This document shows positions 7,774 through 48,624 of a stretch of 64,000 bases of DNA, one piece after another. Each line of letters begins with the position of its first letter. Positions within the stretch are counted from its first letter, which is position 1. Origin of the DNA: Clostridia bacterium. Its GTDB lineage: Bacteria > Bacillota > Clostridia > Peptostreptococcales > Anaerovoracaceae. Made by a program: the position numbers and the translations under genes. The notes beneath the pieces are model-generated. The model saw only the letters and a list, made by a program, of their open reading frames with translations, did not search any database and was not told the DNA's origin. The DNA is taken from positions 1 through 64,000 of the forward strand of contig JAUNMH010000005.1 of NCBI GenBank assembly GCA_030537495.1, in the 5' to 3' direction.

Positions 7774-8745
7774 ATGACGAGAAATTCAACTAAGGGTATA
7801 AGAGAATATATTATAGGTGCTGATATAGGCGGTACCTTCTGCAAACTGGGGCTTTTCAACGGTGAGGGAGAGCTTTTTGATAAATGGAAAATTCCGACTG
7901 CTAGAAATGATGAAGGGGATGTAAGAGACGCGGAGCGCAATATGAAAGTCTTTGACGATCTGGCAGAAAGCATAGAAAAACAGCTAACCCAGCATAATAT
8001 ATGCAAGAATGAAATTATAGGAATGGGCGTAGGAGTGCCAGGACCGGTGAATTTAGAGGGCGTAATTGACAATTGTCCGGCGCTAGGATGGAAAAATCTA
8101 AATATTCCTAAGATTTTACAGAAAAAAATTGGAATCAAAATTAGCTGTGGAAATGATGCGAATTTGGCAGCCTTAGGCGAAAGCTGGAGAGGTTTTGATC
8201 GGGCTTACAACGATGCAATTTTCATAACCCTAGGAACGGGAGTAGGTGGCGGCATTATTTGCAATGGTAAAATCCACAGAGGTGCACACGGATGCGGAGG
8301 CGAAATCGGTCATATTAAGGTGAACCCGTATGAAACCGAAATAGATGGATGTGGCGGGCGCGGATGCTTGCAGCAGTATGCCTCGGCAACGGGAATCATT
8401 AGACTGGCAGAAAAGCTGGGACAAGGGCGCGAAAAAATCACGGCCAAGGATATTTTCCAAAGGGCCAAGGCAGGCGACGAACTAGCTATTGAGGCAATAG
8501 AACAATTTGGTGAAATCCTGGGAAGGACACTGGCAGGAATCTGCCTGGTATTTGACCCAGAGGTAGTTATAATTGGCGGAGGCATAAGCGCAGCCGGAGA
8601 GGCTTTAGTAGATGTGGTGAGGAAACACTACAGAAATTGGGCATATCCGCCGACAAAAGATATGGAATTCAAACTTGCATCCCTAGGCAATGATGCGGGT
8701 ATTTATGGATGCGCCAAGCTGGTGCTGGAGCAAAAAGGAGATTAG
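7774..8745 (+). CDS. ROK-family glucokinase
   Basis: The 323-residue protein has the ROK ATP-binding motif GADIGGTFCKLGLF near residue 15 and the catalytic Asp in GNDANLAALGE. The zinc-site region reads GCGGRGCLQ. Only two of the usual CxCGxxGC cysteines are present, because Asp takes the first position. As first gene of the glycogen operon it most likely makes glucose-6-phosphate from glucose released by glycogen or maltodextrin breakdown. The start is poorly marked: AAGG lies 8 bp upstream and AGGAG is too close. Another ROK sugar kinase activity is possible. Confidence 0.85.
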   Translation: MTRNSTKGIREYIIGADIGGTFCKLGLFNGEGELFDKWKIPTARNDEGDVRDAERNMKVFDDLAESIEKQLTQHNICKNEIIGMGVGVPGPVNLEGVIDNCPALGWKNLNIPKILQKKIGIKISCGNDANLAALGESWRGFDRAYNDAIFITLGTGVGGGIICNGKIHRGAHGCGGEIGHIKVNPYETEIDGCGGRGCLQQYASATGIIRLAEKLGQGREKITAKDIFQRAKAGDELAIEAIEQFGEILGRTLAGICLVFDPEVVIIGGGISAAGEALVDVVRKHYRNWAYPPTKDMEFKLASLGNDAGIYGCAKLVLEQKGD

Positions 8746-15929: not shown

Positions 15930-17023
15930 TGGATAAGGTAATAGGAATTATCGCAGCAAACTATGATACACCGGATTTGGAAACTTTAACCCACGACAGA
16001 ACAATTGCGTCACTTCCATATTGCGGAAGATATCGTCTCATTGACTTCGCTCTTTCAAATATGGTAAATTCGGGAATCGAGACAGTGGGTCTGGTTTTAC
16101 CATATAAATATCGTTCCATTATCGACCACATCGGCATCGGTAAGGAATGGTCCCTAGATAAGAAAAACGGAGGTCTGTTTATACTTCCAGGCTCAGCCTT
16201 TGGTATTTCGGCCTCCACAGACAGATTTATAGTTAGAGACTTCGGCAGAAACAGCGTATATCTTCACCGTTCACCGGCACCTCACGTGGTTGTTACAGCA
16301 TCCAACATGGTCTGCAATATCGACTACTCAGGACTCTACGAGGAACACCTGAAGAGCGGAGCGGACATTACCATGGTTCAGACTGTAGCAAAACATGATA
16401 ATGAATATGTATCCAGAATCATCTCCGAAAACGGAAGAGTTAAAGATGTCATTAAGGGCGTAAGGAAAGGTGAAGAAGCCTTCATTGACAGCTTTATTAT
16501 AAATAGAGAACTTCTTACAGACATTATTGAAGGATACAAGGCTGTAAGCTATTCCGACATGTTCCAGTGCCTGAGGGATTCTTATGATCAACTTAATGTC
16601 AGAACCTATGACTACGACGGGTACGTAAAGAGCATTTTCAATATTAACTCGTACTTTGAGGGAAATATGGAATCTTTGGCAAACGAGGTGGATAAGGCCC
16701 TGTTCTGCCCAGATAGACCGATTCTCACAAAGGAGCAGGATTCTGTTCCAACTAAGTATGGCAGAGAGTGTGAAGTCAGAAATTCCATTATTCCTGCAGG
16801 TTGCAAAATCGAAGGAAATGTGGAAAACAGCGTACTATTCAGACATGTGGTAGTGGAGAAAGATGCCATTGTCAGGAACAGCATCATCATGCAGGACTGC
16901 GTAATTAAGAGCGGTGCCATCGTCGAAAATGCCATAATTGACAGAGGCAATATTGTGGGCGAAGACACAGTAATCAAGGGCACAGAAGAAAAGAAATTCA
17001 TTTTGCCAAAGAAGAAAGATTAA
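15929..17023 (+). CDS. glgD: GlgD, degenerate partner subunit of ADP-glucose pyrophosphorylase
   Basis: The 364-residue protein is a GlgC paralogue whose nucleotide loop is lost: the region equivalent to GGQGSRL reads NYDTPDLETL. Later parts such as GRYRLIDFALSNMVNSGI and the C-terminal hexapeptide repeats are kept. In Firmicutes GlgD combines with GlgC and raises its activity. The one-base overlap with glgC fits a fixed subunit ratio. Confidence 0.93.
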   Translation: MDKVIGIIAANYDTPDLETLTHDRTIASLPYCGRYRLIDFALSNMVNSGIETVGLVLPYKYRSIIDHIGIGKEWSLDKKNGGLFILPGSAFGISASTDRFIVRDFGRNSVYLHRSPAPHVVVTASNMVCNIDYSGLYEEHLKSGADITMVQTVAKHDNEYVSRIISENGRVKDVIKGVRKGEEAFIDSFIINRELLTDIIEGYKAVSYSDMFQCLRDSYDQLNVRTYDYDGYVKSIFNINSYFEGNMESLANEVDKALFCPDRPILTKEQDSVPTKYGRECEVRNSIIPAGCKIEGNVENSVLFRHVVVEKDAIVRNSIIMQDCVIKSGAIVENAIIDRGNIVGEDTVIKGTEEKKFILPKKKD

Positions 17024-17045
17024 GATTAAATAGAGGAAATTATAT

Positions 17046-18551
17046 ATGAAACGTAAACTTAGAGTGTTATTTGCAGCTTCTGAGGCCGTTCCATTTATTA
17101 AGACAGGGGGCCTTGGCGATGTTGCCGGCTCCCTTCCTAAAGCCTTAAATGAAACAGGTGAAGCGGAAGTTCGCGTAATTATACCAAAATACAAGGATAT
17201 CCCTGAAAAATATAAGGCAAAGATGCACCACCTATGCGACTTCAATCTGATGCTAGGGTGGAGAAATATGTATTGCGGCATCGAAACCATGAAACATGAA
17301 GGCGTAACCTATTATTTTGTAGACAACGAGTACTATTTCGGCAGGGAAGGCGCCTACGGCTATTTCGACGACGGCGAGAGAATTGCTTTCTTCTCCAAGG
17401 CCGTATGCGAATTCATTCAGTACGTCGACTTCAAGCCCGATGTGCTTCACTGCAACGACTGGCACACAGCTCTTTCCACGGTTTTTCTGAGGGAGTTCTA
17501 CCACGATGTTGAGGGTTACGACAATATCAAAACTTTATTCACCGTGCACAACCTGAAATTCCAGGGGCAGATGTCCGACTATGTTTTAGGTGATATTTTA
17601 GGCCTTCAGGACAACTATGCGGCGGCAACCCAGCTTAGAAGCGACAGCACATCCATTAACTTTATGAAGGGAGCTCTGTGCTATAGTGACCTTCTGTCCA
17701 CAGTAAGTGAAACTTACGCCGAGGAAATCCAGACTGCTTTCTACGGAGAGCATATGGAGGATATATATAGAAGACGTAAGAATGACCTTTATGGCATTAT
17801 GAATGGAATTGATCAGGACCTATATAATCCTGAAACTAATAAAAGCCTGCCTGCCAACTTTGATACAGCAAATATGGAAGGCAAGGCAATTTGTAAGGCT
17901 GCCCTTCAGGAGGAGCTGGGACTTGAAGTTAACCCTGACGTCCCCCTTATTACTATGTGCGGAAGATTGACTCAGCAGAAAGGGTTGGATCTGGTTCAGC
18001 ATGTTTTAGATGAGCTAATGCAGCTTCCTGTGCAGTTTGCAGTTCTTGGAACTGGGGACAAGGAATATGAGGATATGTTCAGGTACTTCCAGGGCAAATA
18101 TCCAGGAAAACTGGCCGCAGCAATTACATTTAGCGAAGACTTGGCTAATAGGCTATACGCCGGAGGCGACTTCTTCCTAATGCCTTCACTATTTGAACCA
18201 TGTGGCCTTTCACAGATGATGGCCATGAGATATGGAAATCTTCCAATTGTTCGTGAAACAGGAGGACTACGTGACAGCGTGATTCCATATAACAGATATA
18301 CAGGAGAAGGCACAGGCTTTAGCTTCGCCAACTACAACGCTCACGAAATGCTATTTGTCATTAAGGATGCTTTAGGTGTCTATTACGATGATAAGGAAGA
18401 CTTTGAGGGCTTGAGAAGACAGGCCATGAGCAAGGATTTCAGCTGGAATGTGGCAGCGAAAAAATACATGGAAGTCTACCACAGGTTGCATCCGGAAATT
18501 GAGCCGAGAGTTAAGAAGACACCGTCTAGAAGAAAGGCCGTAAAGAAATGA
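17046..18551 (+). CDS. glgA: Glycogen synthase (ADP-glucose-dependent)
   Basis: GlgA adds glucose from ADP-glucose to alpha-1,4 chains. The 501-residue GT5 protein has the N-terminal motif KTGGLGDVAGSLPKAL near residue 20, HCNDWHTALS in the first Rossmann domain, and FEPCGLSQMMAMRYG in the second. A GAGGAAA ribosome site precedes the ATG. The C-terminal tail is Lys/Arg rich, and its stop overlaps the next ATG (ATGA). Confidence 0.95.
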   Translation: MKRKLRVLFAASEAVPFIKTGGLGDVAGSLPKALNETGEAEVRVIIPKYKDIPEKYKAKMHHLCDFNLMLGWRNMYCGIETMKHEGVTYYFVDNEYYFGREGAYGYFDDGERIAFFSKAVCEFIQYVDFKPDVLHCNDWHTALSTVFLREFYHDVEGYDNIKTLFTVHNLKFQGQMSDYVLGDILGLQDNYAAATQLRSDSTSINFMKGALCYSDLLSTVSETYAEEIQTAFYGEHMEDIYRRRKNDLYGIMNGIDQDLYNPETNKSLPANFDTANMEGKAICKAALQEELGLEVNPDVPLITMCGRLTQQKGLDLVQHVLDELMQLPVQFAVLGTGDKEYEDMFRYFQGKYPGKLAAAITFSEDLANRLYAGGDFFLMPSLFEPCGLSQMMAMRYGNLPIVRETGGLRDSVIPYNRYTGEGTGFSFANYNAHEMLFVIKDALGVYYDDKEDFEGLRRQAMSKDFSWNVAAKKYMEVYHRLHPEIEPRVKKTPSRRKAVKK

Positions 18552-24897: not shown

Positions 24898-25041
24898 ATG
24901 AAAAGAATTAAGACAATCGAAACAAGAAATCTTGAAAATAGCATGAAAGACGGCGGATGCGGCGAATGCCAGACTTCATGTCAGTCAGCATGCAAGACAT
25001 CCTGCGGAGTTGCTAACCAGGAGTGTGAAAAGAAGAACTAA
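24898..25041 (+). CDS. scfA: SCIFF ranthipeptide precursor
   Basis: This 47-residue peptide has six cysteines at positions 21, 24, 28, 32, 36 and 43. That is the hallmark of the SCIFF family (six cysteines in forty-five residues), which is widespread in Clostridia. The leader part (KRIKTIETRNLENS) is followed by a Cys/Ser/Thr-rich core. The maturase installs thioether links from cysteine sulfur to other residues. The stop overlaps the maturase start by one base (TAATG), which confirms the pairing. Ranthipeptides are thought to act in signalling. Confidence 0.93.
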   Translation: MKRIKTIETRNLENSMKDGGCGECQTSCQSACKTSCGVANQECEKKN

Positions 25042-26414
25042 TGATACATCAGTATAAACTTAACGGTTTCAATATCGTTATAGATGTTTATAGTGGTTCA
25101 GTACATGTAGTGGATGATGTTGCCTATGACATCATCCAACTTTTTTGTACAGAGGAAAAAGAGACCATTATTGAGAAGATGCTGGACAAGTACTCCGACG
25201 AGCAGGATGTAACAAGAGAGGAGCTTGAAGAGGTCTTCAGCGATATTGAGGAACTGAAAAAAGATAGAAAACTATTTACCGATGACATATATGAACCAAA
25301 TGCCTTTGACCTGAAGAACAGACACACTGAGGTTAAGGCTCTTTGCCTGCATGTTGCTCACACATGTAATCTGAACTGTTCATATTGCTTCGCGAGCCAG
25401 GGAAATTTCAACGGCGAGCGAGGCTTAATGAGTTTTGATACTGGTAAGAGAGCGCTGGATTTTCTTATTGAAAACTCCGGGGACAGACGTAATCTGGAGG
25501 TGGACTTCTTTGGTGGCGAACCGCTGATGAACTGGCAGGTTGTGAAGGATTTGGTGAACTACGCGAGAAGCGTTGAGAAGGAGCACAACAAGAACTTCAG
25601 ATTCACTCTGACAACTAACGGTGTCGGAATCGACGACGATGTAATTGAATTTGCAAATAAGGAAATGCATAATGTTGTTTTGAGCTTGGACGGACGCAAG
25701 GAGGTTCACGACCACCTGCGTAAGACTATTAATGGCGAAGGCAGCTATGACATGATTATTCCAAAGTTCAAGAAGCTGGTTGAGTCAAGGGGCGGCAAGG
25801 ACTACTACATGCGTGGAACTTTTACTCACAACAATGTAGATTTTACTGAGGATATTTTCCATATGGCAGACCTAGGTTTCACGGAACTTTCCATGGAGCC
25901 AGTTGTGTGTGCGCCTGAAGATCCTTATGCTCTGACAGAGGAGGATTTGCCTAAGCTTTTTGAGCAGTATGAAATTCTTGCCAAGGAAATGATTAAGAGA
26001 AAGAAGGCCGGAAATGGCTTCACTTTCTATCATTATATGATTGACCTTAATCACGGACCTTGCATTTACAAGAGAATTTCCGGTTGCGGCTCTGGAACTG
26101 AATATTTTGCAGTAACTCCTTGGGGAGATCTTTACCCATGCCATCAGTTTGTCGGCGATGAAAAATACAAAATGGGTGACATCTGGAACGGAATCACTAA
26201 GGAAGATATTCGTGACGAATTCAAATCTTGCAATGTTTACTCTCGCGATGAATGCAGAGATTGCTGGGCGAGACTTTACTGCAGCGGTGGCTGTGCGGCT
26301 AACGCTTATCATGCAACAGGTTCAGTTAAGGGCGTATATGAATACGGCTGCGAATTGTTCAAGAAGAGAATTGAATGTGCAATAATGATGCAGATTGCAA
26401 TGATGGAGGAATAA
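25041..26414 (+). CDS. scfB: Radical SAM/SPASM SCIFF-peptide maturase
   Basis: The 457-residue enzyme forms thioether cross-links in the SCIFF peptide. The N-terminal part resembles a peptide-recognition domain. The radical SAM cluster motif HTCNLNCSYCF has cysteines at 109, 113 and 116, followed by the FFGGEPLMNW motif. The C-terminal SPASM region binds extra iron-sulfur clusters through cysteines in CGSGTEYFAVTPWGDLYPC and DECRDCWARLYCSGGC. It is translationally coupled to the precursor and followed after 4 bp by an exported protein gene. Confidence 0.95.
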   Translation: MIHQYKLNGFNIVIDVYSGSVHVVDDVAYDIIQLFCTEEKETIIEKMLDKYSDEQDVTREELEEVFSDIEELKKDRKLFTDDIYEPNAFDLKNRHTEVKALCLHVAHTCNLNCSYCFASQGNFNGERGLMSFDTGKRALDFLIENSGDRRNLEVDFFGGEPLMNWQVVKDLVNYARSVEKEHNKNFRFTLTTNGVGIDDDVIEFANKEMHNVVLSLDGRKEVHDHLRKTINGEGSYDMIIPKFKKLVESRGGKDYYMRGTFTHNNVDFTEDIFHMADLGFTELSMEPVVCAPEDPYALTEEDLPKLFEQYEILAKEMIKRKKAGNGFTFYHYMIDLNHGPCIYKRISGCGSGTEYFAVTPWGDLYPCHQFVGDEKYKMGDIWNGITKEDIRDEFKSCNVYSRDECRDCWARLYCSGGCAANAYHATGSVKGVYEYGCELFKKRIECAIMMQIAMMEE

Positions 26415-26418
26415 TTCT

Positions 26419-27819
26419 ATGAATTGTAAGCTAATGAGAAAATTCATGGCTCTGCTTTTGGTCTTTTCCATGATGTTTGCTATGATGCCGGCAATGGTTT
26501 GGGCAGATAGCAGCGCTGACCGCAGTGCAAAGCTTGTTGAAGAGGGGCTGAAGGATGCGACAAACTACTGGACATCAAAACAAGCAGCAGACTTTGCCTC
26601 ATTTGATAATGAATGGTATTTCTTCGACCTAAGCCGTGCAGGGGTATCTATTGACCCTGCAGTTGTGGAAAAATACGTTGCATCCGTTACAGAAACATAT
26701 GCAGGAAGATTGACCTTCAAATATACGAAGCCGACAACTTTAGCTCGCGTTACCCTGGCCTTAGGTGCTGTAGGCGCTGACCCTACAAAGGTTGGAAAAA
26801 TCAACCTTGTGGAAATGCTTTATAACAACAAGGATATAGGCGGCGATAATACAAGTAATGAGGCTATGTGGGCTTTGATTGCCTTAGATAGCAAAAATTA
26901 TGCTATTCCTGCAGGAGCAGCATGGACTAGGGATAAGCTGATTGACGCGACCTTAGAATATCAAAACGCCGACAAGGGTTTTGTCCTTTTCAAGGGTGGC
27001 AAAACAGATATTGATATGACTGCTATGGCAATTCAGGCATTGGCGCCTTACTATAATAAGAATGCTAAGGTTAAGAAGGCTGTAGACGGAGCACTTGAAT
27101 TCTTAAAATCAAATCTGAACAAGAACTGTCAGTTTGAAAGAAAAGAGCAGGGTGGAACATCTGTAATAAGCTCTGAGACCAGCTCACAGGTTTTGATTGC
27201 TTTAGTTGCTATGGGAATGGATCCGCTGGATGCTAATAATGGCTTCGTTAAGGGCGATAAAAACCTACTTACTGGCCTGGACGCTTTCCGCGTTAAGGGC
27301 AAGGGCTTCAAGCACGTGGCTAGCGTAGGCGTAAACGCTATGGCAACTGAACAGGCGATGCGTGGACTTGAATCTTGCAGAAGATTGTCTGCAGGCGAGA
27401 AGTCTCTATATGACTTGTCTGACGCCGGAAATCAGCCTGGAGATGACACATCTGTCGACAACGCTAAGAAGGCAAAGCAGATTGTCTCCAAGATGAGCCT
27501 GACAACTGTTGCGACAAAGACAAAGAAGAAGACTGTAACAGTTAAGGTAAATATGACTAATAAGACAGCGGCAGACCTTAAGTCTATCCAGAAGCTTGGC
27601 TATAATGTAAAGTACAGCTTCTACAGCGCTGCAAAGCAGAACGGAGCTTATAAGGTAGCGGCAACTAAGAAAGCCAATTCTTATATTTTCGCCAAGGGCA
27701 AGAAAGGCGCACGCTTCTACTATAAAACCCAGGTTCGCGTGTACGACAAAAAGGGCAAGTTAATAGCTCAGACTTCTTTAGCAAAGAGCAAGAGCGCAAG
27801 CCAGGCTTGGGGAAAATAA
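26419..27819 (+). CDS. Exported alpha/alpha-toroid protein with Lys-rich C-terminal domain
   Basis: The 466-residue protein has a signal peptide (about 1-30, ending AMVWADS). A helical repeat domain of the terpenoid-cyclase/prenyltransferase or transcobalamin-alpha type follows (about 31-330). Repeating helices contain NEAMWALIALDS, TAMAIQALAPYY and TEQAMRGLESCRR. Residues about 350-466 form a very basic domain shared with the 2056-residue protein at 28736, which also has the same toroid. There is no LPXTG motif. The gene lies 4 bp after the SCIFF maturase, with GGAGG at the maturase end as ribosome site, so it is in that operon. The function is unknown; ligand binding (perhaps a corrinoid) at the cell surface is inference. 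Confidence 0.8.
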   Translation: MNCKLMRKFMALLLVFSMMFAMMPAMVWADSSADRSAKLVEEGLKDATNYWTSKQAADFASFDNEWYFFDLSRAGVSIDPAVVEKYVASVTETYAGRLTFKYTKPTTLARVTLALGAVGADPTKVGKINLVEMLYNNKDIGGDNTSNEAMWALIALDSKNYAIPAGAAWTRDKLIDATLEYQNADKGFVLFKGGKTDIDMTAMAIQALAPYYNKNAKVKKAVDGALEFLKSNLNKNCQFERKEQGGTSVISSETSSQVLIALVAMGMDPLDANNGFVKGDKNLLTGLDAFRVKGKGFKHVASVGVNAMATEQAMRGLESCRRLSAGEKSLYDLSDAGNQPGDDTSVDNAKKAKQIVSKMSLTTVATKTKKKTVTVKVNMTNKTAADLKSIQKLGYNVKYSFYSAAKQNGAYKVAATKKANSYIFAKGKKGARFYYKTQVRVYDKKGKLIAQTSLAKSKSASQAWGK

Positions 27820-27823
27820 ATTC

Positions 27824-27852
27824 TTGCGGCTGCGGAGAATTCGTGATACAAT
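27824..27852 (+). promoter_or_regulatory. Promoter of the cobalamin-riboswitch leader
   Basis: TTGCGG (27824-27829) and TACAAT (27847-27852) are 17 bp apart. The aptamer begins 11 bp after the -10 box. Confidence 0.65.
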
Positions 27853-27862
27853 TATTTGGTTT

Positions 27863-27956
27863 GGAAATGACTAACGGAAGTGGGGTGAGAGTCCCCGACT
27901 GGCCGGCAACTGTGATGCCTGCTTAGACAGGACAAGTCAGGAGACGAGTTATTTCC
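27863..27956 (+). ncRNA. Cobalamin (B12) riboswitch aptamer, compact form
   Basis: The outer stem pairs GGAAATGACT (27863-27872) with AGTTATTTCC (27947-27956). Inside are GGTGAGAGTCC, the GCAACTGTGA segment (the usual GCCACTG region) and the B12 box AGTCAGGAGAC at 27935-27945. The aptamer is about 94 nt, shorter than typical AdoCbl riboswitches, so it may be a variant class. A terminator hairpin at 28103-28174 is the likely expression platform. The next gene downstream is the 2056-residue exported protein. Confidence 0.85.
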
Positions 27957-28102
27957 TTGATGTTAATGATTTCTCTGGGAATAGGAACCGCATCGAAAAC
28001 TTTATATCTCAGATTATCAGGTTGCAAGGCATCTTCAGTATTCAATCAAATGAATTTGCTCTGCATCTTTGAGTGCGCGGATATAAAGCAAAGTGACAAT
28101 GC

Positions 28103-28174
28103 AAACCGTCCAGAGGGGACATGAGACTTTTATCTTTTATGTTAAAAGGCGAGTGTCAGAAGGACGGTTTTTCT
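28103..28174 (+). terminator. Terminator of the riboswitch expression platform
   Basis: AAACCGTCC (28103-28111) pairs with GGACGGTTT (28162-28170) before a T-run. An inner stem (GACA...CTTTTA with TAAAAG...TGTC) supports a long hairpin. B12 binding would be expected to favour this hairpin. Confidence 0.7.
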
Positions 28175-28218
28175 ATTATGCAGGATAAATCGATATCGAA
28201 ATTAGAATGTGCTAAACG

Positions 28219-28308
28219 CGCGACGCATCGCGAAAAAAATGCATGATGCATCGCAATTAGGCGATGCAATGCTGAGAAATGTGCGACGCATCGCAATTAG
28301 GCGATGCA
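28219..28308. repeat. Short palindromic repeats preceding the TIR element, copy 1
   Basis: Two near-identical 24-bp units, GATGCATCGCAATTAGGCGATGCA (written as its 20-bp core GCATCGCAATTAGGCGATGC) lie at 28245-28268 and 28285-28308, 40 bp apart. A half copy (CGACGCATCGCG) is near 28221. Each unit can form a hairpin with arms GCATCGC/GCGATGC. Confidence 0.75.
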
Positions 28309-28311
28309 GCT

Positions 28312-28618
28312 CTATCATTTATGGCACATTCGCTCACTTTTGGGGTCGCCAGTACCAAGGGAAGACGAAAAACAGTGTAAGGCCACTACGTTTTTCTATT
28401 GCGTCAGGTCCCAGAAAGACTCTTGTACTGTTTTCTATGCAAGAATTGTCCCTTTACTAGAGATAATGCTTGGATTGTGGGTAAAACCGCTGGCAATATG
28501 TGGAAGACTCACCGGAAAGCTAAGGAAAAACAGAGAAAACCTGAGGCGTTAGACTCTCCAAGACATGAATTTTGGTACTGGGAGGGCCGAAATACCCCAA
28601 ATGTGCCATAAATGATAG
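28312..28618. mobile_element. MITE-like element with 19-bp terminal inverted repeats, copy 1 (307 bp)
   Basis: The left end CTATCATTTATGGCACATT (28312-28330) is a perfect inverted match to the right end (28600-28618). Inner terminal blocks (TTGGGGT, CCAGTACC) are also inverted. The interior has no convincing protein and shares a core of about 95 bp (near 28390-28484) with copy 2 at 61184-61457. A small stem TCTTGTA...TGCAAGA in the core keeps pairing in copy 2 with a base change (TACAAGA), hinting at selected RNA structure. No transposase is nearby. Confidence 0.7.
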
Positions 28619-28735
28619 AATGGAGACAGGGCGTCAGGATAGATATCGATAAAATCTATGCATTATTTAATGGAAACGAACATCGAAATATAAGTTATAG
28701 TTAATTCAGCTTATATAGCGAAGGAAAGGAAAAGT

Positions 28736-31700
28736 ATGAAGGAAATGAAGCAAAAGCCAATGTCAAGAGTGTTGGCACTGCTACTGGCATTCACTATGAT
28801 TTTCACCATGATGCCTGGAATGGTCTGGGCAGATGATGTAGCCTCTAATGTAGTGACTGTTAGCAGTAGTGAAAACTTACCTAGCACAATTGATGCGGGT
28901 ACAACTGTAAAACTTGACGCAGATATTACCTTGGCAAGTGGACAGCAGATTGAAAACTTAGAAGGCGTACTTGATGGTCAAGGCCATACAATTACCCTGG
29001 CAGACAAGCCTTTGGCAAACGATGTAAAGGGTACTATACAGAATCTGCTAGTAACATCTGATGATGTAATTAAAGATTCAAAGACATTTGGAGCCATGGC
29101 GGTAACTCTTACAGGTACTATTAGAAACTGCGGATGTATCGCGAAACTTGAATTAGAAGGATGGAATGGAAGTGTTGGAGGGGTCGTAGGTGCCTTCAAC
29201 GATGGAATAATCCAAAATGTATATTTTGCAGGTAGCGTTGTTGATTATGAAGGTGGTATCGCTGGTGAGGTTCAAAAAGGGACCAAAGCGCACAATTCGT
29301 ACTACACAATAGGATTAGGCCCTAATACAAATTGTGAAACAAAAAACTGCGAAAAGGTAAAAGCAGATGACCTAAAAGCAGGTAAGATTAACAAAAAGCT
29401 TAACAATGATTTACCTGACACTGGATTCTATTGGGCTAGCCCTGATGAAGGAACCGGTTTTCCGATATTAAAGCTTGGCAAACCACCTGTTGCAAAAGAA
29501 GAACTCGTAGAGAAAATTGCAACAGCGAAGAAGATTGAAAATGACAACTATACTGATGCAACTTGGAAAAAACTGCAGGATACAATCGCAGAAGCGGAGG
29601 TACTTGCAGGTGAAGAAACTGTTACGCAGCAACAAGTTGATGATATGGTTTCCAAGCTAAGTGATGCAATTAGCGGGTTACTTAAGAACAAAATAACCGA
29701 GCCAGTTGCACCACCTGAAGATGAAAAAGAAATTAAACACATTAAGACGGCAGATGAACTACAAAATATCAAAAGCCCAGGATATTATGTGCTAGATAAT
29801 GACTTGACGCTGGGAGATGAAATGTACTGGGCAGAGAATACCTTTAACGGAGTGCTTGAAGGTAATGGACACACGATAACCCTAAAGGACTCATTTACTG
29901 GTATGTTCGATAGCGTAGGACCTGATGGAGTGGTGCAGAACTTGCATATAACTGGCAGCTCTGATATGGCTAAAGGAAGTGTTGCCCACAACAGTTTAGA
30001 AGGTGTTATCATTAACTGTTTCATAGACGCAACTGGAGCAAATGTCTCTGGATTTACTGAGACACTTAAAGGTGGGGCTATCGTAAATTCTTACTCAGTA
30101 AGTAAAGCGAAAAATGGAGTTTTATTTAAAAGATATGAAAAAGGATACCTAAAGAACACTTACTGGAGAGAAGATTTATCAAGTTCTGCAATTGATAATA
30201 TTTCAGAAGAAAATTTGATCAACTCAGGTGCAAAACTTGACTCTGAACTGAAGAGCGGGGATTTTGTAGAATTACTTAATGCCAATCGCGGAACATACGG
30301 AACGAAGTGGGGGCAGAATGCAGAAACTGGTTATCCATACTTTGGTGAGAACCAGCAATATGTACCAGAATGGGAGCGTCCAGTTCCAGAAAACAAGACA
30401 GCAGTTTCATTTAAAACATGTAATGGCAAGAGCTCAGTGATAGAAAATCAGCAACTGACGGTTAATCTTAACTCAACGAAGAACAAGTGGGCGGGAGATT
30501 TTGAACTGCCAGGATATAATTTGAAGGAAAATGAAAAAATTACTTGGTCTATATCCACGGAAGAACCTGAGGGGACTGGTGCTATTGGTGAGGATAAAGG
30601 AAACCTCCATGTATACAAAAGAGGAAGACTAAAAGTTGTTGCGACTCTGCACAAAGCTGACAACACTACAGAGGTTCTGGCAACGATAAAGGTTACAGTT
30701 ATTAAATCAGCAGTTGACGGGATCCAGCTTTGTTTAGCTGATGAAAAAGGCGAAAATGTAGTGGCTGTTACAGATGGGAAAGCCACAGTGCAGGGATCCG
30801 AATGGAAAAAAGTGGTTGTTAAAGCTAAGTCAGCCGGCGAGTCTGAATATCAAGTGTTGGCTTCGGACGCATACAATCTTGAGTTTATAGATGGAACTGG
30901 AAAAGTATTTCGTATGGATGAAAAATCAAAGGATTTCCAATTTACTAGCCCAGGTACAGCTAAAATCAAGGTGACATATAATAATGATAAAAATAGCGAT
31001 AGCATCACTGCAACTGCAGAAATCACTTCAACTTACGTCCCACTTAAATCCATCAAACCAGGAATCAGTGGCACAATTACTCTTCATGGCAGGAACGCAA
31101 ACAGCGATGGTGGTAAGGACTTTAACGCAAACTATGCTGGCGTTATCGTAACACCAAGCAATGCCAGCGTTTGTCACTACAACACAAAGTACAAAATAAC
31201 AAGCAGCGACAAGACTGTGGGCGAGTATATTGACTATCTTGTAAAGGGCTATGTGCCATACAAGGCAGGAAAAGTAAAATATACGGCATCAGTAGAAGAC
31301 AATGGCAAAACTATCTCAGGTTCATCTGACGTTGAATATGTTTACAAGAATCCGCTGAAATATATTACAGTAAATAATAAGAGACTGACTGTTGAAGCAA
31401 ATCAGAGCATTCCGGCAGGTCTAGTATTCCATGGTGCTCTAAATGATGGTCATGAAGTATCTGACACAACTATGGAATGGACATACAGCAAGAATGGAAT
31501 CGTTACAATCGAACGAGAAAATGGCGGTTTTAAGAGAGACGAAAATGCTCCGGACAACAACCAGTATTTCCTAAGTAGCGAATATACAATTCGCGGACTA
31601 GAAGAAGGAACCGTAACTGTAACGGGTACGCCAGTAGATAAAACAGGTGGGGCTAGTGCAGTAAGTTTTGATGTAACTGTTACTCCGGGAGAAGCTGAGG

Positions 31701-34700
31701 AACCTGTAGATAGCGACGCGCTAATCGCGGCAGGCCTTACAGATGCAAAAAACTTCTGGAAGTCCAAGAACGCTAAAGAAATGGCAAGCTTCGGCAACGA
31801 GTGGTACTTCTTCTCATTGTCACGTGCGGGCGTTTCCATAGATTCCAAGGCGGTTGAAGACTATCTTGCCTCAGTGGCGAAGGCATACACAACAGATTTC
31901 GACAACGACAAAGCCAACAAGCTTAAGCCAACGACAATTGCGCGTACAATTCTAGCCGTAGGCGCTTTAGGCAAGGACCCGGCAAACGTTGGCGGAGTAA
32001 ATCTTATTGAGATGCTTTACAACAGCGATAAAATTAGCGACGGCGGAAACGAAGCTATGTGGGCACTTATTGCTTTAAATAGTGGAAATTACACCGTTCC
32101 AGCTGACGCAAAATGGAACAGCGAAAAACTGGTTACGGAAATTCTTGAATACCAGTCAAAGGATGAGAAAGGATTCTCATGGTCAGGTAAGGGTGCAAAG
32201 GCTGACATTGACGGAACAGCTATGGCAATTCAGGCGCTAGCACCTTATTACAAGAACAATGAAAAGGTTAAGAAAGCAGTCGATGGAGCTCTGGAATATC
32301 TCAAAGATAAGATGAACAGCAACTGCCAGTTCGGAACATCAGAAGCGGGCGCACAGGTTTTGATCGCCTTGACTTCTTTAGGAAAAGATCCTCTTAATAA
32401 AGAAAATGGCTTCGTTAAGAGTGTAGCAAGAAACCTGGTTACAGGTCTGGACGCGTACAGAATTGAAGGCAGAGGCTTCAAGCACTTGCTGACAGATTCT
32501 TCCTCTAACAATATGGCAACACAGCAGGCTCTTCTAGCTCTTGAATCATGCAGAAGACTTAAGGCGGGAGAGGCGTCAATTTACGACATTACTGATCTTG
32601 ACCTTAGAAAAACTTTAGAAAATCGTGTAGCTGAAGCCGAAGCGTTAAAGGAAGATTACTATAAGGCAGACTTATGGAAGACAATGGTTGAAGCTAAGGA
32701 CGCCGCAAAGGCAGTCCTTGCAAAGGCAGGGGCTACTGACGAAGAACTTAAGGCTGCGGACAAAACTCTTGCAGACGCTTTATCTGCTCTTTATGTTTAC
32801 AACCCTAACCCAGGTGTTGCAGCAGAAGATATCATTGTTAACATAACAATTGCAGAGCAGGGCAAGTTAGCCGTTGGACGCTTCGAGGATGAAAACGTTA
32901 CAATTGGTGCTATTCCAATTACTGTTCAGGATAGAAACAAAGACGGCAAGCAGGACATCGATGAAGTTCTATATGCTCTTCATGAAAAATATTATGCTGG
33001 CGGCGCAAAGGCTGGCTACGCATGCGATTCAAACGGCTGGCTGAAGATGCTATGGGGGAAAGACGCTTCTGCATCAGGCATGTGGGTTAACAACATTTCA
33101 GCTGGCACTGGTGCAAAAGACACTGTAAACGCAGGCGACAATGTTTCAGTATTTACATACAAGGACACGTCAAAATATAGCGATAAGTTTACTAAGTTCG
33201 ACAAGAACGAATATAAAGTAACTGCAGGCGAAGACGTAAATATGAGCCTGGAGGCTGCTCGTTTTGATGAAAATTATCAGACTGTATGGGAGCATGCGGG
33301 CAGCGTGACAATCAGTCTTCTGAATGGTCGCGTACTGGGCACAACTGGCGCTGACGGTAAGGTGAAACTTTCCGGACTAGCGCAGGGAACACACAAGGTT
33401 ATAGCAAGCGCAGCTGACGGCCTAACAGTTCCAGCTGTTGCAACAATCGTGGTAAGAGACCCACAGGCACCGCAGGACAAGGTTTCCGTAAGCGTTGTAG
33501 ATCCAAACGGCAAAACCTACTTAGCTAAAACAAGCTACGACTTTGAAGCTGGAGACACAGCACTGTCCTTACTTGCAAAAACCAACTTAAAATACACAGC
33601 AAAATATTATGGTATGTATGGTGGATACTATGTAAGCGAAATCGAAGGTCTAGCTGAATTTGACAAGGGACCTAAGAGTGGCTGGATGTATAAGGTAAAC
33701 GGCTCCTTCCCGGGAGTTGCATGCTCTGAGTACAAACTAAACTCTGGCGACTATGTTGAATGGCTATACACTACAGACTTGGGCAACGACATCGGCGCAC
33801 CATCTGAGTCAAAGGGCGACGTAACAACTTCCGGCGGCGCAGTTGGCGGTAACGTAACTTCTTCACCTACGGAAGTAACAGTTTCTAACAAAACCAACAC
33901 AGACGGAACTACTGAATCTACAGCGGTTGTAACTGTTAAGAAGGAAAACCAGGAAGAAATCATCAAGCAGGCTAAGGAAAACAATTCCAAGGATATCGTT
34001 CTAGATGTTGCAGCATCTGACTCAAAGGGTGCAGACAATATTCAGTTAGAACTTCCTAAGGATATGGTAAATTCAATTGTTAAGGAAACTGAAGCTACTG
34101 TAACTGTTAAGTCAGAACAGGGTGAAATGACAATTGACAAGGAAACTTTAATTCAGATTTCAAAGGAAGCAAAGGGAGCAACTGTTGTTGTTAATATTAA
34201 CAAGGCTAAGACTGCAACAGAAGGACAGAAGAAGCTAACTGGCGAAAACACAACTGTTTACAAGCTAACTGTTAAATCAGGAAACGATGTAATCAGCCAG
34301 TTCAATGGTAAGGTTACTGTTAAACTTCCAATCCCTGCAGCACTTCTAGATAAGAAGGTTGCAGCAGTTCACTTCGACAGTGCAGACAAGTTCACAGAAA
34401 TGACTGGTAAGAGAGTAAGCGTATCTGGTGAAGAATACTACGTATTTGATACTACACACTTCAGTGAATTCGGACTAGTTGATGCTAAGGAAGCAGGAAT
34501 TGCAGGGGATGAACCTGGCAAGGACGACAAGCCAGCTAAGGTTGATAAGGTCAAGGAAGCAAAGGAGATTGCTTCTAAGATGAATCTTACAACAGTTGCA
34601 ACAAAGACAAAGAAGAAGACTGTAAAAGTTAACGTTAAGATGACTAAGAAGACTAAGACAGACATTAAGGCACTTAAGAAACTTGGTTACAACGTTAAGT

Positions 34701-34906
34701 ACAGTTTCTACCGTTCAACAAAGAAGAACGGAAGCTATAAGGTAGCAGCGACTAAGAAAGCAAACACTTACACTTATACTAAGGGTAAGAAGGCTAAACG
34801 TTACTACTACAAGACTCAGGTTCGCGTATACGACAAGAAGGGCAAGTTAATCACAAAGACTACTCTTAAGAACAGCAAGTACGCAAGCAGAGTTTGGGTT
34901 AAATAA
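28736..34906 (+). CDS. Giant exported protein with beta-helix, FIVAR, toroid and transcobalamin-like (DUF4430) domains
   Basis: This 2056-residue protein has a signal peptide (about 1-33, ending MVWADD). In order come a beta-helix/GLUG-like region (to about 240), a FIVAR-like helical module (250-320), a second beta-helix region (335-560) and Ig-like domains (565-985). An alpha/alpha toroid homologous to the 26419 protein follows (990-1290), then a second FIVAR module (1291-1360). A DUF4430-like beta domain (about 1361-1482), an Ig-like stretch, a clear DUF4430 domain (about 1582-1687, with GWMYKVNGSFPGV) and a ZU5-like region come next. A Lys-rich C-terminal domain (about 1935-2056) is shared with the 26419 protein. 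Toroid plus DUF4430 matches the two-domain plan of intrinsic factor and transcobalamin. A B12 riboswitch lies upstream. An AAGGAAAGG ribosome site precedes the ATG. No sortase signal is seen. Cobalamin binding is inferred. Confidence 0.82.
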   Translation: MKEMKQKPMSRVLALLLAFTMIFTMMPGMVWADDVASNVVTVSSSENLPSTIDAGTTVKLDADITLASGQQIENLEGVLDGQGHTITLADKPLANDVKGTIQNLLVTSDDVIKDSKTFGAMAVTLTGTIRNCGCIAKLELEGWNGSVGGVVGAFNDGIIQNVYFAGSVVDYEGGIAGEVQKGTKAHNSYYTIGLGPNTNCETKNCEKVKADDLKAGKINKKLNNDLPDTGFYWASPDEGTGFPILKLGKPPVAKEELVEKIATAKKIENDNYTDATWKKLQDTIAEAEVLAGEETVTQQQVDDMVSKLSDAISGLLKNKITEPVAPPEDEKEIKHIKTADELQNIKSPGYYVLDNDLTLGDEMYWAENTFNGVLEGNGHTITLKDSFTGMFDSVGPDGVVQNLHITGSSDMAKGSVAHNSLEGVIINCFIDATGANVSGFTETLKGGAIVNSYSVSKAKNGVLFKRYEKGYLKNTYWREDLSSSAIDNISEENLINSGAKLDSELKSGDFVELLNANRGTYGTKWGQNAETGYPYFGENQQYVPEWERPVPENKTAVSFKTCNGKSSVIENQQLTVNLNSTKNKWAGDFELPGYNLKENEKITWSISTEEPEGTGAIGEDKGNLHVYKRGRLKVVATLHKADNTTEVLATIKVTVIKSAVDGIQLCLADEKGENVVAVTDGKATVQGSEWKKVVVKAKSAGESEYQVLASDAYNLEFIDGTGKVFRMDEKSKDFQFTSPGTAKIKVTYNNDKNSDSITATAEITSTYVPLKSIKPGISGTITLHGRNANSDGGKDFNANYAGVIVTPSNASVCHYNTKYKITSSDKTVGEYIDYLVKGYVPYKAGKVKYTASVEDNGKTISGSSDVEYVYKNPLKYITVNNKRLTVEANQSIPAGLVFHGALNDGHEVSDTTMEWTYSKNGIVTIERENGGFKRDENAPDNNQYFLSSEYTIRGLEEGTVTVTGTPVDKTGGASAVSFDVTVTPGEAEEPVDSDALIAAGLTDAKNFWKSKNAKEMASFGNEWYFFSLSRAGVSIDSKAVEDYLASVAKAYTTDFDNDKANKLKPTTIARTILAVGALGKDPANVGGVNLIEMLYNSDKISDGGNEAMWALIALNSGNYTVPADAKWNSEKLVTEILEYQSKDEKGFSWSGKGAKADIDGTAMAIQALAPYYKNNEKVKKAVDGALEYLKDKMNSNCQFGTSEAGAQVLIALTSLGKDPLNKENGFVKSVARNLVTGLDAYRIEGRGFKHLLTDSSSNNMATQQALLALESCRRLKAGEASIYDITDLDLRKTLENRVAEAEALKEDYYKADLWKTMVEAKDAAKAVLAKAGATDEELKAADKTLADALSALYVYNPNPGVAAEDIIVNITIAEQGKLAVGRFEDENVTIGAIPITVQDRNKDGKQDIDEVLYALHEKYYAGGAKAGYACDSNGWLKMLWGKDASASGMWVNNISAGTGAKDTVNAGDNVSVFTYKDTSKYSDKFTKFDKNEYKVTAGEDVNMSLEAARFDENYQTVWEHAGSVTISLLNGRVLGTTGADGKVKLSGLAQGTHKVIASAADGLTVPAVATIVVRDPQAPQDKVSVSVVDPNGKTYLAKTSYDFEAGDTALSLLAKTNLKYTAKYYGMYGGYYVSEIEGLAEFDKGPKSGWMYKVNGSFPGVACSEYKLNSGDYVEWLYTTDLGNDIGAPSESKGDVTTSGGAVGGNVTSSPTEVTVSNKTNTDGTTESTAVVTVKKENQEEIIKQAKENNSKDIVLDVAASDSKGADNIQLELPKDMVNSIVKETEATVTVKSEQGEMTIDKETLIQISKEAKGATVVVNINKAKTATEGQKKLTGENTTVYKLTVKSGNDVISQFNGKVTVKLPIPAALLDKKVAAVHFDSADKFTEMTGKRVSVSGEEYYVFDTTHFSEFGLVDAKEAGIAGDEPGKDDKPAKVDKVKEAKEIASKMNLTTVATKTKKKTVKVNVKMTKKTKTDIKALKKLGYNVKYSFYRSTKKNGSYKVAATKKANTYTYTKGKKAKRYYYKTQVRVYDKKGKLITKTTLKNSKYASRVWVK

Positions 34907-37510: not shown

Positions 37511-37524
37511 TGATATGAAAAGGA

Positions 37525-46261: not shown

Positions 46262-47815
46262 ATGAAAAGCAAACTAAATCTTGATTCAAAGATTGTTGAC
46301 AGTGCACGTGCTCATGCTGCAAATATCGCTCATGATATGCAGTCATTCATCGACAGACACACTACAGTGTCAACAGAAAGAACAATCTTGAGACTCTTAG
46401 GCGTTGACGGCGTTGACGACGTTGACAACCCACTTCCAAACGTAGTAGTTGACCAGTTAAAGGATGCTGGTGCACTTCCTACAGGAGTAGCTTACTGGAT
46501 TGGTAACGCAATGGTACAGACAGGTAAAAATCCTCAGGCTATTGCTGAAGAAATGGCTGCAGGAAAGCTAGATATCACTAAGCTTGACCACTGCACACAG
46601 GAAGAAGCTGCAGAAGCTCTTAAACCTGTAATCAAAGAAACTTTCGCTAAGATTGATGCTCAGAAGGCAAAGCGTCAGGAATATCTTGACACAATCGGCG
46701 AAGGACCAGAACCTTACATCTACGTAATCGTAGCTACTGGTAACATCTATGAAGACGTTATCCAGGCACAGGCTGCTGCTAGACAGGGTGCTGACATCAT
46801 CGCTGTAATCAGAACTACAGCTCAGTCACTTCTTGACTACGTTCCATTCGGAGCTACAACTGAAGGTTTCGGTGGTACTTACGCTACTCAGGAAAACTTC
46901 AGAATCATGAGAAAAGCTCTTGACGAAGTTGGTGAAGAAGTTGGTAGATACATCAGATTATGTAACTACTCATCCGGTATGTGTATGCCTGAAATCGCTG
47001 CTATGGGAGCACTAGAAAGACTAGACGTTATGCTGAACGACGCTATTTATGGTATCCTGTTCAGAGACATCAACATGCAGAGAACATTAGTAGACCAGTT
47101 CATGTCCAGAGTTATCATCGGATACTGCGGTATCATCTTCAACTCCGGAGAAGACAACTACTTAACTACAGACGATGCTATTGAAGCTGCTCACACAGTT
47201 ACAGCTTCCCAGTTCATCAACGAACAGTTCGCTGTTCTAGCTAACATCCCTGAAGAACAGATGGGATTAGGACACGCATTCGAAATGGACCCAGCTACAG
47301 AAGACGGATTCCTTCTTGAATTAGCTCAGGCTCAGATGGCAAGAGAAATCTTCCCTAAGGCAAGATTAAAGTACATGCCACCTACAAAGTTCATGACAGG
47401 AAACATCTTCAGAGGTCACTTACAGGATGCTCTGTTCAATCTAGTAACAGTTTGGACAAACCAGTCATTACTATTAACTGGTATGCTTACAGAAGCTATT
47501 CACACTCCATTAATGCAGGACAGATACCTAGCTATCGAAAATGCTAAGTATATCTTCAACAACTGCAGACATATCGGTGATGAAGTTGAATTCAAAGAAG
47601 GCGGAATTATCCAGAGCCGTGCTCAGGAAGTATTAGCTAAGGCTGATAATCTTCTTGCAGAAGTAGAAAAAGAAGGTCTATTCTCAACTATCGAAAAGGG
47701 AATCTTCGGCGGAGTTAAGAGACCATTCGACGGCGGACATGGACTTGAAGGCGTTTGCGTTAGAGGCGAAAACTACTTCAACCCATTCATTCCACTATTC
47801 ATGGATCACGAGTAA
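46262..47815 (+). CDS. kamD: Lysine 5,6-aminomutase, alpha subunit
   Basis: KamD is the large subunit of the adenosylcobalamin- and PLP-dependent enzyme that turns beta-lysine into 3,5-diaminohexanoate. The 517-residue length is standard. The barrel region contains YIYVIVATGNIYEDVIQAQAAARQG, and MKYMPPTKFMTGNIFRGHLQDALF lies in the second half. A GAGGAG ribosome site precedes the ATG. It is followed 14 bp later by kamE. Confidence 0.95.
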   Translation: MKSKLNLDSKIVDSARAHAANIAHDMQSFIDRHTTVSTERTILRLLGVDGVDDVDNPLPNVVVDQLKDAGALPTGVAYWIGNAMVQTGKNPQAIAEEMAAGKLDITKLDHCTQEEAAEALKPVIKETFAKIDAQKAKRQEYLDTIGEGPEPYIYVIVATGNIYEDVIQAQAAARQGADIIAVIRTTAQSLLDYVPFGATTEGFGGTYATQENFRIMRKALDEVGEEVGRYIRLCNYSSGMCMPEIAAMGALERLDVMLNDAIYGILFRDINMQRTLVDQFMSRVIIGYCGIIFNSGEDNYLTTDDAIEAAHTVTASQFINEQFAVLANIPEEQMGLGHAFEMDPATEDGFLLELAQAQMAREIFPKARLKYMPPTKFMTGNIFRGHLQDALFNLVTVWTNQSLLLTGMLTEAIHTPLMQDRYLAIENAKYIFNNCRHIGDEVEFKEGGIIQSRAQEVLAKADNLLAEVEKEGLFSTIEKGIFGGVKRPFDGGHGLEGVCVRGENYFNPFIPLFMDHE

Positions 47816-47829
47816 GGAGGTGCACATAA

Positions 47830-48624
47830 ATGTCAGAATGTAAGACAGCAACAACACAGGTTGATTTAACATGCGTAAAGCCATATGGTGACGCATTAAA
47901 CGACGGTAAAGTACAGATCGCATTCACACTGCCAGTTCCATATGGTGAAGAAGCAGAAGAATGTGCTAAGCAGTATGTTAGAAAATTAGGATTAGAAGAA
48001 CCAAACGTATGCTACTACTGTGAATTAACAGAAGGTTATACTTTCTTCAACGTATACGGATGCGCTACTCCTACTATCGACTACACAGCAATTAAGGTTC
48101 CAAAGGTAGAAGGAACTGTTATGGATCGTGTAGAATGTGGTGAATGGATTGGCGAAAACATCGGTAGAGATATCGTTGTAGTAGGTGCTTCAATCGAATC
48201 CGACGCTCATACAGTAGGTATCGACGCTATCATTCAGATGAAGGGCTTCCACGGTCACTTCGGTCTTGAAAGATTCAAGCACGTAGTTGCTTACAACATG
48301 GGTTCACAGGTTCCTTGCGAAAAGCTTATCGCTAAGGCTAAAGAAGTTAACGCTGATGCTATCTTAGTATCACAGACTGTAACTCAGAAGGATATCCACA
48401 TCATGAACCTAACTAAGATGGAAGAACTTCTTGAAGCTGAAGGCCTTCGTGACAAGATCATCCTAACTTGCGGTGGTCCAAGAATTTCTCACGAACTTGC
48501 TCAGGAATTAGGTTACGATGCAGGATTCGGTCCTGGAAAGTATGCTGAACACGTAATGTCATACGTAATGCAGGAAGTTCAGAAGCGTGGATGGGAAAAG
48601 AAAGCTAACATCGACGAACGTTAA
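47830..48624 (+). CDS. kamE: Lysine 5,6-aminomutase, beta subunit (B12-binding)
   Basis: KamE carries the Rossmann domain that binds adenosylcobalamin through a His on the DxHxxG motif, here DAHTVG near residue 128. The PLP-linked Lys is expected in the YNMGSQVPCEKLIAK region. The 264-residue length is typical. An AAGGAGG ribosome site precedes the ATG, and a terminator follows at 48670-48707. Its need for B12 connects this cluster to the riboswitch locus at 27863-34906. Confidence 0.95.
   Translation: MSECKTATTQVDLTCVKPYGDALNDGKVQIAFTLPVPYGEEAEECAKQYVRKLGLEEPNVCYYCELTEGYTFFNVYGCATPTIDYTAIKVPKVEGTVMDRVECGEWIGENIGRDIVVVGASIESDAHTVGIDAIIQMKGFHGHFGLERFKHVVAYNMGSQVPCEKLIAKAKEVNADAILVSQTVTQKDIHIMNLTKMEELLEAEGLRDKIILTCGGPRISHELAQELGYDAGFGPGKYAEHVMSYVMQEVQKRGWEKKANIDER

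Follow-up and report, generated by a model that had tools for sequence, protein, structure and literature searches.

A giant exported protein with a transcobalamin-like domain plan behind a cobalamin riboswitch in a Clostridia bacterium

The DNA analysed here is a stretch of 64,000 nucleotides (the window) of contig JAUNMH010000005.1 from a gut-type Clostridia bacterium, and the subject is the gene of P0001, a giant exported protein of 2056 residues (28736–34906, + strand). Our data indicate that P0001 is likely to be an exported corrinoid-capture protein of the transcobalamin plan, controlled by a riboswitch and handing the corrinoid to an importer encoded elsewhere. The gene stands behind a cobalamin aptamer and a terminator-like hairpin, and the protein has an export signal and both domains of the plan. 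Its predicted fold matches B12 carriers, and the linkage of such proteins with cobalamin aptamers and CbrT-like energy-coupling factor (ECF) importers recurs in other genomes. Published sources are given by PMC number.

The aptamer (27832–27967, + strand) is a short form of 136 nt, which matches RF00174 with 38.1 bits against a cut-off of 31.5 (E-value 4.3e-6 for the 64-kb window, 8.4e-8 for the leader only). It is the sole Rfam match at the gathering threshold across the whole 64 kb, and RF00174 is the sole Rfam match at E ≤ 1 within 27500–28740. Reading of the sequence and alignment to the RF00174 consensus placed the B12 box, AGTCAGGAGAC, at 27935–27945 (+ strand), exactly the position given in the preliminary description. 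In the alignment 11 nt stand in for about 60 model positions, and from its length the aptamer would belong to class II. The terminator proposed ahead of the giant open reading frame (ORF) was recovered by folding as a hairpin with a U run (28104–28172, + strand), a candidate expression platform. The segment 28095–28182 folds with −25.3 kcal/mol (z −2.9; 1 of 200 shuffles was equally good), and the stem has 8 bp (28104–28111/28162–28169) with a short U run after it. A terminator scan did not report the hairpin of 28104–28172 because the loop limit of the scan was 8.

Translation of 28736–34906 verified the ORF of the 2056-residue protein. Its N-terminal segment (residues 1–32, 28736–28831, + strand) resembles a signal peptide and contains a hydrophobic stretch at residues 12–32. 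The alpha/alpha toroid that had been read from the sequence lies at residues 991–1288 (31706–32599, + strand), where a family profile built here gave 356.5 bits with a match at residues 993–1288, the predicted local distance difference test (pLDDT) was high and fold searches agreed; it would be the alpha-domain of the transcobalamin plan. A Pfam search of P0001 left the toroid unmatched. The candidate beta-domain is a DUF4430 domain at residues 1580–1690 (33473–33805, + strand), with 67.5 bits for PF14478 at residues 1606–1679 (Pfam, gathering cut-off 23.8), 133 bits for a local profile over residues 1580–1690, high pLDDT and fold matches. We presume that DUF4430 is the domain called transcobalamin-like by InterPro. 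The preliminary description had allowed for one or two DUF4430 domains, and one was found. The proposed extra copy at residues 1361–1477 (32816–33166, + strand) gave 0.7 bits or nothing by profile and low pLDDT in both structural models, and was rejected; a genuine DUF4430 is present at this kind of spacing in the relatives L035 and L036. Pfam recognises no domain in residues 1–980 or in the C-terminal part of P0001, and both resemble the repeats of surface proteins. The C-terminal 420 residues (1639–2056) are 76–80% identical to those of two other giants of the same genome, the 1529-residue protein of L009 and the 3292-residue protein of L014. The tails of these two share 71% identity over 486 residues, and the remainder of the giants is dissimilar. 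The shared tail of the three giants therefore appears to be the result of a recent exchange or duplication.

Two AlphaFold2 models were made. Model 1 covered residues 985–1480, a range that ends before the real DUF4430 (50 sequences, mean pLDDT 83), and had a toroid mostly above pLDDT 90 and a beta part with low values. Model 2 covered residues 985–1695 (55 sequences, mean pLDDT 78, predicted template modelling score (pTM) 0.56), and here the toroid was again mostly above 90, the DUF4430 mostly 87–96 and the linker largely below 50. When each model was compared with the PDB by Foldseek, 14 of 14 matches at E ≤ 0.001 were transcobalamin, intrinsic factor or haptocorrin. Model 2 superposed on intrinsic factor (3kq4) over 348 of 385 residues at a root-mean-square deviation (rmsd) of 5.0 Å (model range 7–697; VIA-align, with the pTM of 0.56), and on the other transcobalamin and haptocorrin chains over 335–352 residues at 5.0–5.5 Å (VIA-align). 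AlphaFold2 was trained on PDB entries and may favour the two-domain pose. The toroid matched 2pmv_B with Z 18.9 (rmsd 3.4, 243 residues). The model beta-domain matched the transcobalamin beta-domains 5no0 and 5np4 as well as 3u7z in the fold search. A profile of 40 DUF4430 domains aligned with the C-terminal domain of a profile of intrinsic factor, haptocorrin and transcobalamin (hhalign 84%, E 7.4e-6, 87 columns), and DUF4430 profiles searched against PDB sequences gave nothing useful. Direct sequence homology of the toroid with intrinsic factor and transcobalamin was considered and rejected: profile searches of the PDB returned terpene cyclases, prenyltransferases and complement, and neither of the two carriers. 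Structure prediction with fold search, the beta-domain profile match and comparative genomics agree on the intrinsic-factor plan first proposed for P0001.

The comparative data come from GTDB genomes scanned by toroid similarity alone, of which the best 80 of 203 confirmed matches were kept; counts cover 79 of these 80 loci (all except L069) in 74 genomes. The loci are from Ruminococcus bromii, Lysinibacillus, Solibacillus, Paenibacillus, Emergencia, Tissierella, Clostridium tagluense, Terrisporobacter, Lutispora, Enterococcus canis and many metagenome-assembled Bacillota. A search of whole genomes for RF00174 covered two sets with 3 genomes in common and gave a match in 33 of 37 genomes of one set and in 37 of 40 of the other. 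Aptamer placements at the loci were checked for the motif in the sequence itself, and placements mapped by coordinates at, for example, L045 (2209), L074 (6275), L084 and L091 were false by this check. A regular-expression scan for aptamers was too insensitive, finding 3 of the 8 known copies, and RF00174 was used in its place. An upstream aptamer on the same strand was present at 54 of the 79 loci (53 of 74 genomes), compared with 0.28 expected from aptamer density. These 54 include L044 and L094, and the three upstream aptamers of L104 count as one; at four loci a further confirmed aptamer lies downstream or on the opposite strand. Where a genome has just one RF00174 match, this aptamer is upstream of the toroid locus in 26 of 29 loci. 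The first gene of at least 150 residues after the aptamer encodes a toroid and/or a DUF4430 in 51 of 54 cases. DUF4430 occurs in 76 and an EcfT homologue in 58 of the 79 loci. The same-genus loci L135, L137, L138 and L140 combine an aptamer, EcfT-EcfAA-EcfS, a toroid and a DUF4430, and among P0001-like giants of the genus or family the aptamer is 246 nt upstream in L139 and about 190 nt upstream in L136.

Among the relatives, an N-terminal hydrophobic segment is found in 56 of 58 stand-alone DUF4430 proteins, some of which are lipoprotein-like, and in 79 of 95 toroid ORFs. Depending on the lineage, toroid ORFs carry S-layer domains, dockerins or a C-terminal membrane segment. The Ruminococcus bromii toroid/DUF4430 proteins of L041 (9140–11041) and L046 (9050–11035) are encoded behind a short cobalamin aptamer and have a C-terminal type I dockerin, by which they may attach to a scaffoldin complex. 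Short aptamer variants (ATTACTGT ... CATAAGTCAG) stand upstream of toroid genes in L041, L046, L047, L062, L078, L085, L105, L057 and L077. They score 25.7–28.8 bits, under the RF00174 cut-off, and the search missed those of L057 and L077 altogether; the genomes of L057 and L077 have no RF00174 match, and nonetheless a short aptamer-like motif was found upstream (at 8433 and 8939, respectively). As a control of the motif scan at loci without an RF00174 match, reversed sequence gave 13 matches in 1.36 Mb. This short form is likely to be an under-annotated variant. In another genome all 18 toroid matches and at least 6 cobalamin aptamers fall within one 80-kb stretch (G052:C12, about 92.7–174.7 kb), which looks like a massive local expansion.

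The P0001 genome itself (1.92 Mb, 37 contigs) has 8 RF00174 copies, and 4 of these lie ahead of genes for toroid or DUF4430 proteins. The window aptamer has 136 nt, the one at contig 15:85406 has 138 nt and the other six have 175–219 nt. The aptamer on contig 36 precedes the 3292-residue protein of L014, which contains two DUF4430 domains and a toroid, and that at contig 15:85406 precedes the 245-residue and 1529-residue DUF4430 proteins of L009 with a long leader. In L009 a second, degenerate cobalamin aptamer (16802–17130, − strand; 23.2 bits, below the cut-off) lies between the short aptamer (17407–17544) and the gene of the 245-residue protein, a tandem arrangement. The contig 9 aptamer is followed by a membrane-anchored DUF4430 protein, an exported toroid, EcfT, a fused EcfA and EcfS. 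The only PDB match of this EcfS was 6fnp_A (E 4e-7), and a profile of 21 EcfS members matched 6fnp_A at 2.9e-21, RibU at 2.3e-6 and others more weakly. 6FNP is ECF-CbrT, a transporter of cobalamin and cobinamide (PMC5997447). In sequence, the S component of the recurrent toroid/DUF4430 operon resembles CbrT, the S component for B12, most closely.

We infer that P0001 binds a corrinoid, that its riboswitch is an OFF switch and that the ligand is handed over to an importer. The toroid (residues 991–1288) and the DUF4430 (1580–1690) would clamp the corrinoid between them in the manner of intrinsic factor. When B12 is plentiful, the riboswitch would halt transcription at the hairpin near 28170, and when B12 is scarce, transcription would pass the hairpin into the P0001 gene. 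The captured corrinoid may then be passed to the DUF4430/toroid/ECF (CbrT-like) operon of contig 9 or to a BtuFCD-like system of contig 15. Transcobalamins first bind cobalamin with the beta-domain, after which the alpha-domain closes, and isolated domains can bind (PMC11107200); split toroid and DUF4430 proteins fit such a mechanism. A toroid on the wall side and a DUF4430 on the membrane side might close on the corrinoid above the ECF S component, and giants such as P0001 might act as single-chain outer traps. For many Bacillota it seems moderately probable that surface transcobalamin-like proteins form a complex around a corrinoid and deliver it to a dedicated CbrT-like ECF importer, all under the control of cobalamin riboswitches; the proteins would be either a single giant chain or a toroid attached to the wall or through a dockerin and paired with a membrane-anchored DUF4430.

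Instead of cobalamin itself, the exported proteins may have a different cobamide, cobinamide or some other tetrapyrrole as their ligand, which we regard as possible but doubtful. Cobinamide is bound by the beta-domain of transcobalamin (PMC5599065) and is taken up by CbrT (PMC5997447). In the P0001 genome, a fifth cobalamin aptamer, on contig 15, precedes genes for an exported CbiK-like protein and BtuFCD-like proteins, which is in line with such a ligand. The CbiK cobalt-chelatase-like protein (L010:8532–10409, − strand) begins with a signal-like segment and has an fn3 domain at its C-terminus. The aptamers and the CbrT-like S component, on the other hand, indicate corrinoids as a class, and hemin did not compete in CbrT (PMC5997447).

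Several results weigh against P0001 as a riboswitch-controlled corrinoid-capture protein. Model 1 fitted the same transcobalamin, intrinsic factor and haptocorrin chains only at an rmsd of about 16 Å, with the beta part (1361–1477) misplaced. Terpene cyclases outscore intrinsic factor when the toroid is compared alone (Z about 21 versus 18.5–18.9, VIA-align), and the toroid fold by itself is therefore not diagnostic; the predicted two-domain match, unlike the toroid alone, would be diagnostic of the transcobalamin plan. At the sequence level, the toroid profile matches squalene-cyclase-type entries and not intrinsic factor or transcobalamin, and the hhalign comparison of the toroid with these two was weak (29.6%) and probably in a shifted register. 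PF01122, which we take to be the accession of the eukaryotic cobalamin-binding protein family, was absent among the Pfam families of P0001 at E ≤ 1. No importer gene adjoins P0001. An upstream aptamer is lacking at 25 of the 79 loci, including L035 and L036, the closest relatives found; several of the 25 start at a contig edge and 8 are in genomes without any RF00174 match. Among the same-genus giants, the aptamer of L133 is 2.7 kb upstream with other ORFs between, and L134 has no aptamer within 2.8 kb upstream. The spacing between aptamer and ORF is 769 nt for P0001, which exceeds all 54 relatives measured (overlap to 750 nt), and this leader contains a dispersed repeat with inverted ends (about 28243–28627, between the terminator and the ORF). 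The repeat, which the preliminary description does not mention, was recognised from matches in its own genome, where 33 further partial matches occur, and has arms of 48 nt (28311–28358/28572–28619). Because of the 769-nt leader with the repeat inside it, the link between the aptamer and P0001 is weaker than in most relatives.

The long leader and the giants L133 and L134 are also what would be expected if the toroid/DUF4430 family captures corrinoid but P0001 itself has been uncoupled from the riboswitch, the repeat having separated the two and either supplied or exposed a promoter that gives B12-independent expression. We consider this unlikely. A promoter scan of 27600–28800 gave 1 site, which is within the ORF, against 2.2 expected, and no good promoter was found in 28180–28736. 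The sibling short aptamer on contig 15 likewise has a long leader, and the aptamer and hairpin of P0001 appear intact. A role of P0001 as a common surface adhesin or glycan binder, with a sugar-binding or inert toroid and an aptamer that merely co-regulates it with metabolism, would suit its repeat-like regions and the occurrence of toroid folds in sugar epimerases and hydrolases, but is highly improbable given that toroid and DUF4430 recur as short stand-alone exported or membrane-anchored proteins in cobalamin-riboswitch ECF operons and that the 14 top fold matches are all B12 carriers. Corrinoid capture under riboswitch control is the most likely reading of P0001.

P0002 (26419–27819, + strand), also unmentioned in the preliminary description, is an exported toroid-only paralogue of 466 residues, whose toroid (residues 36–336; 368 bits) is 53% identical to that of P0001. 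Its gene ends 12 nt ahead of the aptamer and starts 4 nt after the SCIFF maturase gene scfB (25041–27819 for the pair), and no aptamer was found upstream of it within the window. The B12-dependent lysine 5,6-aminomutase KamDE, named in the preliminary description, was identified by NCBIfam models: the alpha subunit KamD at 46262–47815 (+ strand; NF052384, 899 bits, cut-off 600) and the beta subunit KamE at 47830–48624 (+ strand; NF052385, 375.3 bits, cut-off 280). A sigma-54 activator at 37515–39635 matches a 3,5-diaminohexanoate dehydrogenase model at residues 23–188 (133.6 bits, cut-off 200), apparently an enzyme-like sensor domain on a regulator of lysine fermentation.

How to identify the B12 transport systems of numerous gut genomes is still an open problem (PMC6593275). 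If the toroid/DUF4430 proteins bind corrinoids, they would explain B12 uptake in many species, including Ruminococcus bromii, and would correspond to BtuG on the Gram-positive side. Intrinsic factor and transcobalamin would have a counterpart, and possibly their origin, in bacteria, and the question of a shared ancestry between animal and bacterial B12 carriers would be raised. No published description of toroid/DUF4430/ECF operons was found in the literature searched, and Rodionov 2009 (ECF families) lies outside that search. A survey of cobalamin regulons lists B12 transport genes, and surface carriers are unmentioned in its available text (PMC3766115).

The closest known systems are the vertebrate intrinsic factor, transcobalamin and haptocorrin (3kq4, 2bb5/2bb6, 4kki), in which a single exported chain carries a toroid and after it a small beta-domain, and in which B12-dependent domain closure is known (PMC11107200). 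P0001 is like these carriers in predicted fold and, in one model, may be like them in the relative placement of the domains. It differs in that the domains are about 290 residues apart inside a 2056-residue surface protein, that structural alignments show 9–18% identity and that PF01122 is not matched; many bacterial relatives split the domains over two chains. A cobalamin-binder-like protein with DUF4430 only is mentioned in teleosts (PMC4350170). The surface lipoprotein BtuG of Bacteroides likewise captures B12 ahead of an importer and is linked to B12 transport loci, but it is Gram-negative and works with BtuB (PMC6143338); the likeness drawn here is one of role. RUMGNA_00854 of Ruminococcus gnavus (PDB 3u7z) matches the model beta-domain (TM score 0.67–0.71 on the target), but it is a single domain and is annotated as a 'putative metal binding protein'. 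The window shares the aptamer, B12 box and downstream hairpin with RF00174 riboswitches, whereas its target is a giant surface protein and its aptamer is of the short 136-nt form. The S component of the linked operons is nearest to that of ECF-CbrT (6FNP), for which the available text mentions no extracellular carrier (PMC5997447), whereas here an exported toroid and a DUF4430 are co-encoded. The parts are already known kinds, and their combination, a surface carrier in bacteria together with an ECF importer, appears to be new.

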